From Sandaracinus amylolyticus (GTDB lineage Bacteria > Myxococcota_A > Polyangia > Polyangiales > Sandaracinaceae): a stretch of DNA of 64,000 bases. The translations under genes were made by a program, and so were the position numbers. The notes under the pieces were generated by a model. That model saw nothing but the letters and a program-made list of their open reading frames with translations, had not been told where the DNA came from and searched no databases. The stretch is from the NCBI RefSeq assembly GCF_000737325.1, contig NZ_CP011125.1, forward strand, positions 1,116,001 through 1,180,000, written 5' to 3'. Numbering within the stretch: the stretch's first letter is position 1; every line of letters starts with the position of its first letter. Shown here in pieces: positions 7,299 through 15,647 of the stretch.

Positions 7299-7347
7299 GG
7301 CCGCGCTCTTGCGCCCCGTCGCGGCCTCGCGCTACGCCGCCGCGACC

Positions 7348-8520
7348 ATGCAGAGCGATCGTCGCCACCACATCGACACCCTCGCCGTCCACGCAGGCCA
7401 GGAGCCCGATCCCGTCTCGGGCGCGGTGATGCAGCCCATCGTGCTCGCGAGCACGTTCGCGCAGCCGAGCCCCGGCCAGCACAAGGGCTTCGACTACTCG
7501 CGCAGCGGCAACCCGACGCGTCAGGCGCTCGAGCGTTGTCTCGCCGCGCTCGAGGGCGGCACGCACGGCATGGCGTTCGGCTCGGGCTGCGCCGCGATGA
7601 CGACGCTGCTCCACGTGCTGAAGCCCGGCGATCACGTCGTCGCGGGCGACGATCTCTACGGCGGATCGTTCCGCATCCTCGACAAGGTGATGAAGCCGCT
7701 CGGCATCGTCACCACGCAGGTCGACATGGGCGATCTGCGCGCGTTCGAGAGCGCGCTGCGCCCCGAGACGAAGCTCGTCTGGCTCGAGACGCCGACGAAC
7801 CCGATGCTCAAGCTCGTCGACATCGCCGCGGTGTCGGAGATCGCGCGCAAGCGCGGGTGCCTCGTGATCGTCGACAACACGTTCGCGACCCCGGTGCTGC
7901 AGCGCCCGCTCGAGCTCGGCGCGCACGCGGTCGTGCACTCGACGACGAAGTACCTCAACGGCCACAGCGACGTGGTCGGCGGCGTGATCATCACGAGCGA
8001 CGACGAGCTCGCGCAGCGCGTCGCGTTCCTGCAGAACGCGATGGGCGGCGTCCCCGGTCCGTTCGACTGCTACATGGTGCTGCGCGGCGTGAAGACGCTG
8101 CACCTGCGCATGCAGCGCCACGTCGAGAGCGCGCGCTCGATCGCGGCGTGGCTCGAGTCGCACCCGCAGGTCGAGAAGGTGCACTACCCGGGGCTCGCGT
8201 CGCACCCGCAGCACGCGCTCGCGAACCGTCAGATGAAGGGCCCGGGCGGGATGATCTCGTTCGTCGTGAAGGGCGGCATGCCCGCGGCGCGCGCCCTGCT
8301 CGAGACCGTCGAGATCTTCGTGTGCGCGGAGAGCCTCGGCGGCGTCGAGTCGCTGATCGAGCTGCCCGCGATCATGACCCACGGCTCGATCCCCGCGGCG
8401 CAGCGCGCGGCGCTCGGGATCCACGACGGGCTCATCCGGATCTCGTGCGGCGTCGAGGCGCACGACGATCTGCGGGGCGACCTCGAGCGCGCGCTCGACG
8501 CGGCGCGCCGCGCGAGCTGA
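7348..8520 (+). CDS. Trans-sulfuration PLP enzyme (cystathionine gamma-synthase / gamma-lyase family)
   Basis: A 390-residue Cys/Met-metabolism PLP enzyme, full length for the family. Hallmarks are the N-terminal TLAVHAGQEPDPVSGAV, the YSRSGNPTR phosphate-binding region, LETPTNP, DNTFATP and the PLP lysine in STTKYLNGHSD (about Lys201). These fix the fold; the family includes cystathionine gamma-synthase, gamma-lyase and O-acetylhomoserine sulfhydrylase, and the length plus LGGVESLIELPA fit the synthase/lyase branch. The start MQSDRRHHIDTLAVHAG was chosen because earlier in-frame starts overlap the previous gene with unrelated sequence. Confidence 0.93.
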   Translation: MQSDRRHHIDTLAVHAGQEPDPVSGAVMQPIVLASTFAQPSPGQHKGFDYSRSGNPTRQALERCLAALEGGTHGMAFGSGCAAMTTLLHVLKPGDHVVAGDDLYGGSFRILDKVMKPLGIVTTQVDMGDLRAFESALRPETKLVWLETPTNPMLKLVDIAAVSEIARKRGCLVIVDNTFATPVLQRPLELGAHAVVHSTTKYLNGHSDVVGGVIITSDDELAQRVAFLQNAMGGVPGPFDCYMVLRGVKTLHLRMQRHVESARSIAAWLESHPQVEKVHYPGLASHPQHALANRQMKGPGGMISFVVKGGMPAARALLETVEIFVCAESLGGVESLIELPAIMTHGSIPAAQRAALGIHDGLIRISCGVEAHDDLRGDLERALDAARRAS

Positions 8521-9217: not shown

Positions 9218-10101
9218 TCGCGCGTGCTCTCTTCGCGGCGTCGGCCGCGCTCGTGCTCCTGGCGTGCGGTGGCGCGCCGGCAGCGACCGAGCGCACGACG
9301 CCGCAGCCGTCTCGGCCGATCGACGCGCCGATCGTCGACGTGCGCACCGGCGCGCGGATGACGCTCGAGGAGCTCGCCATCGCGCTCGACGACGCGCGCG
9401 TCGTCTACGTCGGCGAGCGACACGACGCGCCGGCCGATCACGAGGCACAGCGCGCGATCATCGCGGCGCTGCTCGCGCGCGGCGGATCGCTCGCGATCGG
9501 CATGGAGATGTTCCAGCGCCCGTTCCAGGCGCCGCTCGACGCGTACGTCGCGCGCTCGATCGACGAAGCGGAGATGCTGCGTGCGACCGAGTGGCAGGAG
9601 CGCTGGAACATGGACTTCGCGCTCTACCGGCCGATCCTCGAGCTCGCGCGCGATGCGGGGGCCCCGGTGATCGCGCTCAACGCGCGGCGCGAGCTGACGC
9701 GCACGATCGCGCGCGAGGGCGATGCCGCGCTCACGCCCGAGCTGCGCGCCGAGCTTCCCGCGGAGATGGTCACCGACGACGCGGCGCACCGCGCGATGAT
9801 CATGGAGGCGTTCGGCGAGCACCCCGGGATGGAGCCCGCGATGCTCGAGCGCTTCTACCTCGCGCAGCTCGTGTGGGACGAGACGATGGCGGAGCGCGTC
9901 GCGTCGACGCTCGCGAGCGAAGGCGCGCCGGCGCGCATGGTGGTGCTCGCGGGCCGCGTGCACGTGCAGGGCGGGCTCGGCATCCCGCGGCGCGCCGCGC
10001 GTCGAGGCGCGGCGCCGTATCGCGTGGTGATGCCGCTGCTCGAGGAAGAGCTCGGCGATGCCGCCGAGCTCTGTGACTACGCGTTCGTCGTCACCGAGTG
10101 A
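9214..10101 (+). CDS. ChaN family lipoprotein (TIKI/EreA-like fold, haem-binding type)
   Basis: About 295 residues. No ATG is in frame before the conserved domain; TTG 9214 overlaps the upstream stop (TTGA) and gives a clean signal peptide MIARALFAASAALVLLAC with lipobox LLAC. The domain carries the ChaN signature VYVGERHDAPADHEAQ, followed by GMEMFQRPFQ and later GRVHVQGGLGIP. Characterised ChaN is an iron-regulated haem-binding lipoprotein, and the wider TIKI superfamily includes metalloproteases. No haem-uptake genes adjoin it, so substrate and role are open. Confidence 0.85.
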   Translation: MIARALFAASAALVLLACGGAPAATERTTPQPSRPIDAPIVDVRTGARMTLEELAIALDDARVVYVGERHDAPADHEAQRAIIAALLARGGSLAIGMEMFQRPFQAPLDAYVARSIDEAEMLRATEWQERWNMDFALYRPILELARDAGAPVIALNARRELTRTIAREGDAALTPELRAELPAEMVTDDAAHRAMIMEAFGEHPGMEPAMLERFYLAQLVWDETMAERVASTLASEGAPARMVVLAGRVHVQGGLGIPRRAARRGAAPYRVVMPLLEEELGDAAELCDYAFVVTE

Positions 10102-10114
10102 GCCGACGGAGCGC

Positions 10115-10678
10115 TCACTGCCCGACGAGGCGCGCGACGCCCTCGCTGATCGCCTGCTGCTCGGCGGGCGCGAAGCCCTCGCGCTCCCACACGATGCGGC
10201 CGTCGCGATCCACCCAGATGCTGAACGGCGCGCTGCGGCGCGGGTTGATCTGCGTGGTGATGCGCGTGTCGAGGTCGGTCACGACGTCGAACGTCACGCC
10301 CAATCGGCGCGCCGCCGGACCGGCGCGCATCACGGTGCGCGCGTCGTCCATGCTGATGCCGACGATGCGCAGCCCGCGATCACGATAGCGCTCGTAGAGC
10401 GACTGGTAGAACGGCAGCTCCTGCTGGCAGGGCACGCACCACGTCGCCCAGAACAGGATCACGACGGGGTGCTGCCCGAGGTGATCGGCCATGCGGAACT
10501 CGTCGCGCGACGGACCGCCGGTCGCGGCGGGCAGCGTGAACGGCGGAGGCCGACCGCCGACGCGCGCGAGCGCGCTCGATGCACCGAGGACCGGCGTGCT
10601 CGCCGGCACCGCCGCGATCGACGCGGCAGCGATCGTCGCGCCGAGCGCGAGCACGAGCGACAGTCGTGAGAGCTTCAT
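10115..10678 (-). CDS. TlpA-like thioredoxin-fold exported protein
   Basis: A 187-residue protein whose N-terminal signal or anchor segment (MKLSRLSLVLALGATIAAASIAA) leads into an AhpC/TSA-Redoxin domain with the CxxC centre FWATWCVPCQQELPF (Cys81, Cys84). It should act as a periplasmic thiol-disulfide oxidoreductase. GGAGG upstream of ATG 10678 fixes the start. It is the last gene of a four-gene minus-strand operon with the beta-barrel gene (46 bp upstream), a second CxxC lipoprotein and a Cys-rich lipoprotein. Confidence 0.88.
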   Translation of the reverse strand: MKLSRLSLVLALGATIAAASIAAVPASTPVLGASSALARVGGRPPPFTLPAATGGPSRDEFRMADHLGQHPVVILFWATWCVPCQQELPFYQSLYERYRDRGLRIVGISMDDARTVMRAGPAARRLGVTFDVVTDLDTRITTQINPRRSAPFSIWVDRDGRIVWEREGFAPAEQQAISEGVARLVGQ

Positions 10679-10724
10679 CGACATCCTCCGACGCGAGCGC
10701 GAGGCCCGCACTTCACGCGATCCG

Positions 10725-12452
10725 TCACAGACGACCGACGAACTGCAGCATGAATCCCTCGAACGCCGGGACCGTGCGGCACACGCCACCCGAGCAGATC
10801 TGACCGCCCGGCGTCTGACCCACGAACGCCTTCAGGAACGTCCCGGGGTCGAAGCTCCACCGCGCCTCGAGCGACGGGTACCAGGCGCCGCCGAGCACGT
10901 TGTACGAGTACTCCGGCTGCTCGCGACGCATCAGCTCGTCGAGCCGGAAGTCGCTCCAGCGCAGCGCGACGGTGAGCGCGAGCGGGACGCCCCACGAGTA
11001 CGTGATCGACGCGCCGCCGACCTGGAAGTCGCGGTAGTCGTCGAACCCGAGGAACCACGTCTCGACGCGATGATCGACCGACACGTCGAACGAGTGCTCG
11101 CCGCTGCCGACGGTCACCTCGACCTGCCCGTGCACCATGCGGCGATCGAGCGAGCCCACGCCGATCTGCGCCGAGCTCGCGTCGGCATCGTGGAGGAACT
11201 GCTCGTGGCGATACCCGAGCACCACGTTCGTCGACCACACGTACTCGTCGCCGAACTCCTGGCGCCGCGCGAGCGAGCCCCACGTGTGGCTGACCAACGT
11301 GCCGTCCCACGGATCGCGGCCGTGCTCGCCGAACCCGTAGAGCGCTTCGTTGACCGAGAAGCTCCAGGGCCCCGGCAGGAACGCGTAGTCGATGCGCACC
11401 GCGCCACCGCGCCGGTTGCCGACGCCGCGCAGCAGCTGCGGGCCCTCGTACTCGAGCGTCGGCGCCGCGCTGTAGATGCGCGAGGCCTGGGCCTCGGTGG
11501 TGCTCGGCGCGACGAGGTAGTTCTCGTAGTCCGCCCACTCGACGAGCACGGTGAGCTCGTCGCCCTGCACCTGCGCGCTCGCGTACACGGCGCGACCGAA
11601 CTCCTGCTCGTCGCGCCCGTCGAACGTGTACGTGCGGCGCAGCCCGTTCGCCTCGCCGTAGACCGCGAGACGTCCGTCGAGCAGCGCGGGCGCTTCGAAG
11701 CTCCAGCCCGCGACGTCGACCGTGCGGTGTTCGAACGCGACGAGCGGGTCGTCCATGAACCACACGCGATCGCCGTGCAGGCCGATCGTCAGCGGCACGT
11801 CGCCCGGGATCGTGAGCTCGACCTCGCCCGCGATGATCAGATCCTCGGGCTCCGCGACGATCCCGAGCGTGATCGGATCCTGGTTCTGCGGGTTCGCGAG
11901 GCCGACGTGCAGCCGCGCGTCGACGTTCGTCCCGTCGTAGCGCACGTGCCCGCCGCGCAGCGCGTTGTCGACCGCCAGGAGATCGACCTTCCGGAACGCG
12001 AGCGCGATGCCGCGTCCGAGCACGAGCTGCGAGTCACCGGCCTCGACGAGCCACTCGTCGTGCTCCCAGCGCAGCGCGATGCGCTCGGGCCGCACGTCCC
12101 ACGTGACGTAGCAGAGCACTTCGTCGCCGGGCGGGCACCGCGTGTCCTCGAAGATCGTCGTCGGCAGGAACGCGTCGAGCCGGACCTCGAGCCGCAGCTC
12201 GTCGCTCTGGAGCGCGAGATCGAAGCGCTGGTAGAGCGAGCCGAAGTCGTCGTCGTAGCGATTGAAGTCGTAGTTGTTGCCGCGATAACGCAGCGTCGTC
12301 GTGCTGGTCATCGAGAACGTCGTCGTCCCGATGAACGGCAGCTCGAACGAGAGGTCGTCGGCGTGTGCTGGCGCCGGCGAGACCAACGCGAAAGCTGCGA
12401 ATGCCAGGGCGAGGCCGCCCTGGATCGCACGCGCGGCGCGGAGGCGCGTCAC
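10725..12452 (-). CDS. Outer-membrane beta-barrel protein, DUF6029-like
   Basis: A 575-residue exported protein. The GTG start at 12452 overlaps the stop of the upstream redoxin gene by 4 nt (GTGA) and gives the signal peptide VTRLRAARAIQGGLALAFAAFALVSPAPAHA. The mature sequence is a long series of alternating strands with aromatic girdle residues, ending in Leu after FMLQFVGRL. Segments such as LVLGRGIALAFRKVDLLAVDN recall DUF6029 outer-membrane proteins; that family label is from memory and tentative. A cysteine pair (ICSGGVCRT) lies near the C-terminus. Its partners are thiol-redox proteins, hinting at redox-linked assembly or transport. Confidence 0.82.
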   Translation of the reverse strand: MTRLRAARAIQGGLALAFAAFALVSPAPAHADDLSFELPFIGTTTFSMTSTTTLRYRGNNYDFNRYDDDFGSLYQRFDLALQSDELRLEVRLDAFLPTTIFEDTRCPPGDEVLCYVTWDVRPERIALRWEHDEWLVEAGDSQLVLGRGIALAFRKVDLLAVDNALRGGHVRYDGTNVDARLHVGLANPQNQDPITLGIVAEPEDLIIAGEVELTIPGDVPLTIGLHGDRVWFMDDPLVAFEHRTVDVAGWSFEAPALLDGRLAVYGEANGLRRTYTFDGRDEQEFGRAVYASAQVQGDELTVLVEWADYENYLVAPSTTEAQASRIYSAAPTLEYEGPQLLRGVGNRRGGAVRIDYAFLPGPWSFSVNEALYGFGEHGRDPWDGTLVSHTWGSLARRQEFGDEYVWSTNVVLGYRHEQFLHDADASSAQIGVGSLDRRMVHGQVEVTVGSGEHSFDVSVDHRVETWFLGFDDYRDFQVGGASITYSWGVPLALTVALRWSDFRLDELMRREQPEYSYNVLGGAWYPSLEARWSFDPGTFLKAFVGQTPGGQICSGGVCRTVPAFEGFMLQFVGRL

Positions 12453-13063
12453 TCGCCGAGCAGTCGATCGAGCGCGGCCGTGATCGTCTCGAGCTCGTTC
12501 GAGACGCCGACCTCGTGGTGCACGATGACGCCGTTCGAGTCGACGATCAGCGTCGCGGGCAGCGCGTTGTCGGGGAAGTAGATCTGCGTCAGCTGGTTCG
12601 GATCGGTGAGCTCGGGGAACGTGATCCCGTAGTTCTCGACCCACTGCTGGCAGTACTCCGGCGTCGGCGGCGCGGGCCCGGGATCCTGGATCAGGACCTG
12701 GACGACGCGGACGCCGCGGTCGGCATACGCCTCCGCGATGTTCGCCTGGATGAGCGCGGCTTCCATGTGACACGGTTGGCACCAACCGGCCGCGATCGTC
12801 AAAACGGTGAGCGAGGCATCACAGTAGCCCTCGTCCGCGCCGTAGAACTCGAAGGGCGTGCCGTCGCAGCGGTTGAGCGTGAACGGGCGCAGCGTGCGCC
12901 CCTCGCTCGTGCCGTACGGGCCCTCGGGCGGCGCGCACTGGGCCGGGTCGCCCGAGTCCGCGGTGGTCGAGCCGGCGTCGGGACCGCCCGGGTCGTTCGA
13001 GCCGCAGCCCGCGAGCGGAGCGACGAGGAGCGCGATCGAGATGAGGAAACGAACGGTGCGCAT
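12449..13063 (-). CDS. TlpA/redoxin-family lipoprotein
   Basis: A 204-residue lipoprotein: signal peptide MRTVRFLISIALLVAPLAGC, lipidated Cys20, a Gly/Asp/Ser linker, then a thioredoxin-fold domain with the active site AAGWCQPCHME (Cys95, Cys98) and the strand ALPATLIVDSNG. Probably a periplasm-facing, lipid-anchored thiol-disulfide oxidoreductase. It is translationally coupled to the downstream barrel gene and starts 16 bp after the Cys-rich lipoprotein gene. A second CxxC protein ends the same operon, so the system has two distinct redox modules. Confidence 0.88.
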   Translation of the reverse strand: MRTVRFLISIALLVAPLAGCGSNDPGGPDAGSTTADSGDPAQCAPPEGPYGTSEGRTLRPFTLNRCDGTPFEFYGADEGYCDASLTVLTIAAGWCQPCHMEAALIQANIAEAYADRGVRVVQVLIQDPGPAPPTPEYCQQWVENYGITFPELTDPNQLTQIYFPDNALPATLIVDSNGVIVHHEVGVSNELETITAALDRLLGE

Positions 13064-13079
13064 CGAGGGTCTCCTGAGC

Positions 13080-14003
13080 TCAGCGGCCGCAGACGTTGCT
13101 GACGCTGCCGTCGCTGCGGGTCACTTGGCGACACTGATAGCCGGTCGGGCACGCGGTGCGCGTGCAGTCGATCGGCAGACACACGCCGTTGTCGAACGAC
13201 GCGGTCGAGCTCGCGGTCTGGAACTGCTGCCGGCACGTGTAGCCCTCGCGGCAGTCGGCGGGCGAGCTGCAGCCGTCGAGGCAGATGCCGAGATCACCCT
13301 CGGTCAGGCTCCCGTCGGGGAAGCACACGTCGGTCTCGCCCGCGCAGCCCGCGCGCGGCAGGACCGGGCCCGAGAAGAAGAAGTTGCTGCTGTAGCCGGC
13401 CGGCAGGATGCAGCGACCGATGCACGCGCCGCCGACGAAGCCGCTCGGCGTCCCGCCGTTCGCCTCGCGTAGGCACGCCTGGCTGCGACACTCGTCGTTG
13501 TTCGCGCACGGCTCGCCGACGACGGCGCCGGTCGGCTCGCTCGTGCCGGCGGGCACGCAGCGCGCGCTGTGGCGGTCGCACACGTAGCCCTCGCTGCACT
13601 CGGTGTCGCTCGCGCACACGCCGACGCACACGCCGCCCGACGGCGGGAGCTCGCCCTCGCACGTGTAGGCCTCGCGCCCGCAGTCGAGCCCGTTGCGGCA
13701 TCGCTGCTCGCAGAACGACTGCGTCTCGCCCTCGCGGCGCACGCAGTGGTGGTACGACCCGAACGCATCGCAGGGCGTGCGGTCGTCGCACGGGACCGAG
13801 CAATGCCCGCCCGGGAAACCGTCCTCGTCACGCCGGCAGACCGCGCCTTCGCCCGGGCACTGCGAGTCGTCGACGCATGGTCCGAACAGCTCGCTCGGGG
13901 CGAGCGCGTCGGTTCCGGCGTCGTCGACGACGGGGTCACCATCGCTGCAGGCGATGCAGAGGAGCACGAAGTGAAGTGCGACGAAGAATCGAGATCGGCT
14001 CAT
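13080..14003 (-). CDS. Cys-rich secreted lipoprotein
   Basis: A 307-residue protein with signal peptide MSRSRFFVALHFVLLCIAC (lipobox CIAC) and some 36 cysteines in repeated modules of the form GPCVDDSQCPGEGAVC, GVCASDTECSEGYVC, EPCANNDECRSQAC. These are the short Cys-rich repeats typical of myxobacterial surface proteins and should form many disulfides. First gene of the operon that continues with two CxxC oxidoreductases and a beta-barrel; the neighbours are plausible folding or isomerase partners for this protein (inference). Confidence 0.85.
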   Translation of the reverse strand: MSRSRFFVALHFVLLCIACSDGDPVVDDAGTDALAPSELFGPCVDDSQCPGEGAVCRRDEDGFPGGHCSVPCDDRTPCDAFGSYHHCVRREGETQSFCEQRCRNGLDCGREAYTCEGELPPSGGVCVGVCASDTECSEGYVCDRHSARCVPAGTSEPTGAVVGEPCANNDECRSQACLREANGGTPSGFVGGACIGRCILPAGYSSNFFFSGPVLPRAGCAGETDVCFPDGSLTEGDLGICLDGCSSPADCREGYTCRQQFQTASSTASFDNGVCLPIDCTRTACPTGYQCRQVTRSDGSVSNVCGR

Positions 14004-14084: not shown

Positions 14085-15647
14085 ATGCATCGCGGCCTCG
14101 CTTGCTCATCCGTGCTCGCCCTGTCGCTCGTCATCGCTGGATGTGAAGAGAACCCAAGGCCCGACGGGGGATCCGACGGAGACGCGGGTGGGATCGCCGA
14201 CGCTGGTCCGCCGCTCTCGTGCGCGACGACGACGCTCGTCGAACCGGTCCTCGACACGCCGATGAGTGTGACTTTCGACACGGCGATGACCGAGGAGCGA
14301 CCGCGCGACCTCGGGCTGAGCTGTGGCAACACCGCCGCCGAGCTGCGCTGGGCACCGCAAGAGGTCGTCGAGCTGCGCGTGCCGGGCTCGGGCCTCGTCG
14401 CGATCCAGCTCGACACGCTCGCGGGCACGTCCGACACGTTCAACACGGTCCTGCAGGTGCGGCGCACGTGTGAGGACGTGCCGCAGGGCATCTTCCCTCC
14501 GACGTGCTTCGACGATGTCGACCCCATCGAGTTCCGCAGCCGCGGCGCGTTCACCGCGATGGGCGGCGAGGTCGTGTACGTCATCGTGACCGGCTACAGC
14601 TCGCCGCCGGCCGAGCAGGGCACCGTCGATCGCGGCGTCGTGCAGCTCGAGATCACGGCGCGCGCCGACACCGCGCCCACGCTGACCGCGGGCTTCGTGC
14701 GGCTGGCCAACGCCGACGTGCTGATCGGCGCGACGGGCGAGGACGTGGACGGCGATGCGGTCGGCGTCGCGATGAACTTCCTCGGGCCGTCCGGCGAGCT
14801 CCTCGACATCTACGGCGACGGCGCAGCCACGATGGACGGCGACGTGTTCCCCGTGTTCTTCGACGAGCGTCCGACGACGGACGCATACGACGGGCGGGCG
14901 CGCGTGCTCGGCAACGAGGTGACGCTCGCCGCGTTCATGCGCTCGGCGATGGTGAGCCGCGTGGTGCTGCGCGCGTTCGACGCGGCCTTCGCGACGAGCG
15001 CGCCGCTCGAGGTGGAGGTCGAGGAGGCCGTGCTCGTGGGCCTAGGCGAGGCGTGCGACGACGAGCGCGTGTGCCGCCTCCCGATGACGTGCGGCGGCGA
15101 CGGCACGTGCACCGTGACCGGCGCCGCGGCGGCGGTGTGCACGAACGCGACGGCGATCGCGATCGAGGCGCCGACGACGACCGCGACGACGGCGACCGTC
15201 ACCGGCACGACCGGCGCCGGATACGGCCACTACGAGCAGGGCTGCGCGGTCGGCACCGGCAGCCAGGGCGCGGAGCGCGCGTACTCGGTCGTGGTGCCCG
15301 AGGGCACGTTCGACCTGATCGCGACGACCGATCTCGCCGGCACCGGGAGCACCGACACGATCCTCGCGCTGCGCTCGGTGTGCCCGGACTCGGGCAGCGA
15401 GCTCGCGTGCAACGACGACATCGCGATGTCGAACGTCCAGAGCGCGCTCGAAGAGCGCGACCTGGCGGGCGGAACGTACTTCCTGATGGTCGAGATGTTC
15501 GGCGGCATCGGCAGCGGCACCGCGCCGCACGCGCTCCAGGTCACGCTGCGCCCGGTGCTCGACGCGGGCGCGACGTGCGATCCCGCGGGCGTGCAGAACC
15601 GCTGCGCGACGGGCGCGTGCCCGGCGGCGGGCGTCTGCCCGGACTGA
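14085..15647 (+). CDS. Secreted lipoprotein with two pre-peptidase-like beta domains
   Basis: A 520-residue lipoprotein; signal peptide MHRGLACSSVLALSLVIAGC, lipobox IAGC, then an Asp/Gly linker. Two regions resemble C-terminal pre-peptidase (PPC) beta sandwiches: RVPGSGLVAIQLDTLAGTSDTFNTVLQVR at about 105-135, and YSVVVPEGTFDLIATTDLAGTGSTDTILALRSVC near residue 420, with the characteristic D-T-x-L-x-L-R and GGTYFLMVE strands. Short Cys motifs close the protein. No catalytic domain is visible. Divergent from the Cys-rich lipoprotein at 13080-14003, with 81 bp between them. Confidence 0.82.
   Translation: MHRGLACSSVLALSLVIAGCEENPRPDGGSDGDAGGIADAGPPLSCATTTLVEPVLDTPMSVTFDTAMTEERPRDLGLSCGNTAAELRWAPQEVVELRVPGSGLVAIQLDTLAGTSDTFNTVLQVRRTCEDVPQGIFPPTCFDDVDPIEFRSRGAFTAMGGEVVYVIVTGYSSPPAEQGTVDRGVVQLEITARADTAPTLTAGFVRLANADVLIGATGEDVDGDAVGVAMNFLGPSGELLDIYGDGAATMDGDVFPVFFDERPTTDAYDGRARVLGNEVTLAAFMRSAMVSRVVLRAFDAAFATSAPLEVEVEEAVLVGLGEACDDERVCRLPMTCGGDGTCTVTGAAAAVCTNATAIAIEAPTTTATTATVTGTTGAGYGHYEQGCAVGTGSQGAERAYSVVVPEGTFDLIATTDLAGTGSTDTILALRSVCPDSGSELACNDDIAMSNVQSALEERDLAGGTYFLMVEMFGGIGSGTAPHALQVTLRPVLDAGATCDPAGVQNRCATGACPAAGVCPD

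Follow-up and report, generated by a model that had tools for sequence, protein, structure and literature searches.

What joins two thioredoxin-fold proteins, a cysteine-rich lipoprotein and an outer-membrane barrel in a single gene cluster? The question is raised by the window analyzed here, a 64,000-nucleotide stretch of the Sandaracinus amylolyticus genome, in which four minus-strand open reading frames (termed A, B, C and D in order along transcription) are all present. A first-pass annotation of this DNA had described them as closely packed, with a gap of 16 bp between A and B, a 4-bp overlap (GTGA) between B and C and a gap of 46 bp between C and D, and had read CxxC motifs in B and D; packing, spacing and both motifs were recovered as described. 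The four genes are as follows:

13080..14003, minus strand: gene A, Cys-rich lipoprotein, 307 aa
12449..13063, minus strand: gene B, TlpA-like lipoprotein carrying WCQPC and cis-Pro169
10725..12452, minus strand: gene C, predicted DUF6029-type outer-membrane beta-barrel, 575 aa, with a GTG start in the overlap with the stop of B
10115..10678, minus strand: gene D, exported TlpA/ResA-like thioredoxin-fold protein with WCVPC

The clustering is not a product of chance, because the whole single-contig genome (10.33 Mb) holds 20 AhpC-TSA places in total and two of these flank barrel C; together with a tally of 97 barrel loci (see below), this rules out a fortuitous meeting of thioredoxins and barrel. 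Elsewhere in the surroundings, a ChaN-type haem-binding protein (PF04187, 223 bits) is encoded at window positions 9253-10101 on the plus strand, convergent with D, and a Cys/Met metabolism PLP enzyme (PF01053, 510 bits; 7345-8520, plus strand) lies downstream of the cluster, a few genes away, and is also present in the closest relative.

Both B and D pass the Pfam cut-offs for Redoxin and AhpC-TSA, and each combines a CxxC and a cis-Pro with an export signal sequence; the lipobox of B reads LAGC. Their active sites map to the following positions:

12770..12781, minus strand: active site C95-x2-C98 of B, both Cys present in 29 of 29 homologues
10427..10438, minus strand: active site C81-x2-C84 of D, from translation and homologue alignment

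The closest solved relatives of D are ResA and DsbE proteins. Against the NCBIfam models for ResA and DsbE, D scores 70.2 and 33.2 bits and B scores 40.8 and 28.7 bits, all under the curated cut-offs (170 and 123, respectively), and on these profile scores the two are classed as TlpA-type thioredoxins but not as ResA or DsbE equivalogs. The genome encodes a single DsbD_TM protein, of the DsbD/CcdA type.

The barrel itself had been called DUF6029-like with a cysteine pair near its end, and both observations hold. C matches Pfam DUF6029 (PF19494) at 32.1 bits (gathering cut-off 27), and the match is confined to its last 27 residues, those that contain the pair; in a relative with a fused thioredoxin domain, profile positions 48-536 are matched at 160 bits. 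Three features of C recur in the analyses below:

10779..10796, minus strand: CSGGVC (C553-x4-C558), located in the barrel's last beta-hairpin and present in 91 of 91 complete barrels
12111..12137, minus strand: second Cys pair, C106/C114, in the predicted extracellular loop 99-118 (barrel alignment and model)
11967..12017, minus strand: conserved loop running from G146 R147 G148 through L151 to D162, on the predicted extracellular side

All 91 complete barrels, drawn from several phyla, carry a C-x4-C within their last 45 residues (three barrels lacking it are cut or mis-framed and were left out of this number), and an alignment of 31 diverse barrels leaves C553 and C558 as the sole invariant cysteines. 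When both were changed to Ser in silico, the DUF6029 score of C fell from 32.1 to 17 bits, a loss of 15 bits, and the Pfam profile therefore holds the same conserved pair. Such invariance indicates that the pair is not incidental and that it marks the barrel family.

To follow the cluster beyond this genome, we searched 96 related genomes, found barrel homologues in 51 of them and tallied the neighborhoods of 97 loci with a homologous barrel. D adjoins or is fused to the barrel at 82 loci, and D or B is present at 92. By group, D is adjacent or fused at 29 of the 40 loci from the order to which S. amylolyticus belongs, 30 of 34 from the rest of the phylum, 19 of 19 from a Krumholzibacteria group and 4 of 4 others (Bdellovibrionales, Krumholzibacteria, Eisenbacteria and one without assignment). 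Eleven of the 40 order loci have no D nearby, and 10 of those keep B, which is frequent in Myxococcota and occurs also in Bdellovibrionales, one genome of which carries the set of B, D and barrel. The handful of loci with neither D nor B near the barrel includes contig ends and low-GC genomes with poor gene calls, and a control Bacteroides genome gave no DUF6029 match. The first-pass annotation had proposed a thiol system whose genes should be neighbors in related genomes; for D and the barrel they are, and the proposal survives in the form of a conserved outer-membrane thiol-redox unit. Its core is D plus barrel, widely conserved and sometimes fused, and we consider it nearly certain that this thioredoxin-barrel unit is real and conserved. 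Separately, D is immediately preceded by a response regulator in one part of the phylum (eight loci), and in several genomes the barrel is followed by a conserved ~310-aa gene and ArsA-like ATPase-looking genes.

Fusions between the two partners bear on both topology and history. A D domain is fused to the barrel N-terminus at three Myxococcota loci, and 9 of the 19 loci in the Krumholzibacteria group encode TlpA-DUF6029 fusions, as at locus L194, where Pfam assigns residues 22-134 to AhpC-TSA and 185-630 to DUF6029. These proteins run from a single N-terminal signal through the thioredoxin domain to the barrel, an order that therefore puts the thioredoxin domain on the periplasmic side. In a maximum-likelihood tree that also took in a further 14 AhpC-TSA proteins from the genome, all 14 fall outside a single cluster (82 rows, support 87/90) that unites the fused domains with the barrel-linked D proteins; the fused rows sit in three places of the tree, and B forms a monophyletic clade (support 100/98). 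Taken together, the single D cluster, the scattered fusions and the B clade indicate that the pairing of D with the barrel is old and specific, and that fusion either recurred or was repeatedly split. Repeated recruitment of unrelated housekeeping TlpA proteins is ruled out by the separation of the D/fused cluster from the genome's other members, for which the support is moderate.

An AF2 model of C built with 24 sequences (pLDDT 80.9, pTM 0.77, ~24 strands) predicts an outer-membrane beta-barrel fold. Each even strand leads back via a short periplasmic turn (2-8 residues; conserved residues over all turns, 0/41), 13 conserved residues fall in the extracellular loops, and conserved charged residues lie on the predicted extracellular side. 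In the model, C553 and C558 stand on either side of the last extracellular turn (2 residues), a topology that would place the pair at the extracellular end of the barrel, with moderate confidence at the hairpin tip (residues 551-560, mean pLDDT 60); read from the strand list and the alternation of the sequence, both probably face the lumen, near the outside. Redox-active disulfides often show a geometry in which the bond links adjacent strands of a tight hairpin.

What might lie on the far side of the barrel is suggested by the Krumholzibacteria group, where barrel neighbors include thioredoxin-like proteins with an Omp28 domain (PF11551), some of which carry at their C-terminus a Por_Secre_tail or FlgD-like domain, as is typical for type IX secretion (tails found in this group only). 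The CxxC and following proline of the Omp28-type proteins line up with the corresponding residues of D (hhalign, E 1.4e-4, single comparison), and the Omp28-type domain gave no PDB match by sequence. At L194 and two further loci (L198 and L200), barrel neighbors combine PEGA and Omp28-like domains, an unusual pairing. Because some Omp28 neighbors join secretion tails to a D-like CxxC, a thioredoxin-like protein probably acts beyond the outer membrane, next to a barrel that has a periplasmic thioredoxin on its other side, and it is chiefly these neighbors that favor a relay over plain maturation of the barrel. Omp28 proteins thus resemble the cluster in being thioredoxin-like, with CxxC, and placed beside the barrel, but they are absent from the four-gene cluster itself, and in Myxococcota B holds that place. 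A Paraprevotella 'Omp28-related' protein that binds trypsin was rejected as a functional model, since the fold predicted for it is reported to be WD40 plus Ig (PMC9477747), unlike that of the thioredoxin-like neighbors.

We propose, with a probability of about 0.4, that the cluster encodes a thiol-disulfide module dedicated to the outer membrane, with D trading electrons with the barrel pair and onward to surface thiol proteins. Briefly, the one DsbD/CcdA-type protein of the genome would supply periplasmic D, the usual partner of barrel C, from the inner membrane; D would reduce the C553-C558 pair, which could then hand on reducing equivalents, or disulfide reshuffling, to thiol proteins on the outer membrane or outside it. 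Here the candidate clients or acceptors are two lipoproteins putatively at the surface, B with its likeness to thioredoxin and A with its 32 cysteines, and in other phyla the Omp28-type thioredoxin-like proteins may take this part. A reducing direction is suggested because the CVPC, CQPC and CEPC sites are of TlpA/ResA type and differ from the CPHC of DsbA. Counting against a relay, the barrel topology puts D and C553/C558 at opposite ends, and an invariant disulfide might serve structure alone.

The chief competing explanation is maturation of the barrel, whereby D (with or without B), acting as a dedicated catalyst or isomerase of disulfides, sets or proof-reads C553-C558 next to the C-terminal beta-signal during folding and the job of the finished barrel is non-redox. 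The invariance of the pair and its place in the last hairpin accord well with this scheme, as does the fusion of D at the barrel's own N-terminus, where it would work in cis on the chain, and the whole would be a natural extension of Dsb-LptD biology. Maturation nevertheless sits uneasily with the reductive-looking (TlpA/ResA-like) active sites of D and B, leaves unexplained both the second thioredoxin lipoprotein B and the surface-directed Omp28 thioredoxin-like neighbors, and might be served by general Dsb enzymes with no need of a dedicated, fused partner. We regard it as a serious possibility, well short of even odds and somewhat less probable than the relay; were it alone at work, the unit would represent a novel form of Dsb-dependent barrel assembly.

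Less probable is a redox-gated pore for the export or import of polysaccharide, or of a peptide or protein such as A, that D would open or close via C553-C558. By fold, C comes closest to the ushers FimD/PapC, to AlgE and to Occ porins, with MtrB (6r2q_B) lower, and the sole paper found to name DUF6029 proposes a possible polysaccharide-export barrel by remote HHpred similarity (PMC9603273); the charged residues conserved on the predicted extracellular side would also suit a pore. Similarity among large barrel folds is, however, unspecific for function (with VIA-align, many reach Z 15-18), no OPX, PCP or glycosyltransferase genes were recognized beside the barrel in the mapped loci (neighbors partly annotated by family search), and gating is itself conjectural. 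On balance we think such a pore unlikely.

Gene A bears on a further reading. The first-pass annotation had put its cysteines at about 36; we counted 34 in 307 aa, 32 of them after the lipid Cys, as in most complete homologues, and across 21 homologues Cys makes up 28 of 56 conserved columns. A Pfam search placed A in no family, and its score against Myxo_Cys_RPT (TIGR04201) is 16.1 bits, under the NCBIfam cut-off of 25 bits. In Sandaracinaceae and relatives A lies directly upstream of B, and in the 97-locus tally it is present at 23 of the 40 loci of the order and at 0 of the 57 elsewhere. A is a lineage-specific add-on, the most lineage-limited of the four genes; maturing A therefore cannot be the general function, which corrects the thiol system as first proposed. 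The barrel pair C106/C114 occurs in lineages that also carry A, a correlation that is only suggestive because it covers essentially one clade. That B and D act as isomerases folding A, which the barrel then carries to the surface, would fit the position of A, its many cysteines and the tracking of C106/C114, but is very improbable given that beyond the order A is missing at all 57 loci while D and the barrel persist, an absence that likewise rules out a system built around A.

In lineages without A, the slot upstream of B is often held by other Cys-containing lipoproteins of ~340 aa (eight loci), one family with several Cys, a conserved C-terminus and no Pfam match above cut-off. On the other side of A lies one more lipoprotein:

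14085..15647, plus strand: divergently transcribed lipoprotein of 520 aa and 18 Cys next to A, with homologues beside A in relatives

It has a weak PPC domain, and its homologues (40-89% identity, 17-19 Cys) lie at the corresponding position next to A in 5 related genomes; one genome has two copies. By this association it is a possible partner or substrate of the module.

Disulfide chemistry of Gram-negative bacteria is held to be run in the periplasm. The proposed relay would extend it outward as a cytochrome-free thiol conduit, from a periplasmic thioredoxin (covalently in the pore in some lineages) through the barrel Cys pair to thioredoxin-like or Cys-rich surface proteins. We put this forward tentatively; if true, the conduit would let several phyla control extracellular disulfides. 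The conserved thioredoxin-barrel unit, with fusions that constrain its topology, would supply a first candidate for a route by which thiol chemistry crosses the outer membrane, and DUF6029, so far uncharacterized, gains a testable function that comes down to one Cys pair and one partner protein.

Among known families and systems, DUF6029 is the one whose cut-off C passes and whose C-terminal C-x4-C it shares, but the family has no described function, and its pairing or fusion with a TlpA-type protein is absent from the literature searched. TlpA, ResA and CcmG (DsbE) have the fold, CxxC and cis-Pro of B and D, whereas they go with cytochrome or cytochrome-oxidase assembly genes and the present proteins go with an outer-membrane barrel, adjacent or fused. 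DsbA makes disulfides in the outer-membrane barrel LptD, and that system likewise couples barrel disulfides to a periplasmic thioredoxin-fold enzyme; the enzyme is general there, and here it is dedicated, linked, sometimes fused and reductive-looking in its active site. In a literature search that left most subscription journals outside, the thioredoxin-barrel unit was undescribed, and the only route across the outer membrane that a search for thiol routes turned up was the heme-based one of Shewanella, whose porin-cytochrome conduit carries electrons over the outer membrane, also to extracellular disulfides (PMC10986466). The resemblance to MtrCAB is an analogy of working and not of membership: both would set a periplasmic redox protein, a large barrel and an outer redox lipoprotein in series. 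The multiheme pattern (CxxCH) occurs in none of the four translations A-D, and the cluster has thioredoxin-fold proteins and Cys pairs instead of multiheme cytochromes. Any novelty lies in the unit itself, the pairing of a thioredoxin, dedicated or fused, with a barrel of the outer membrane.
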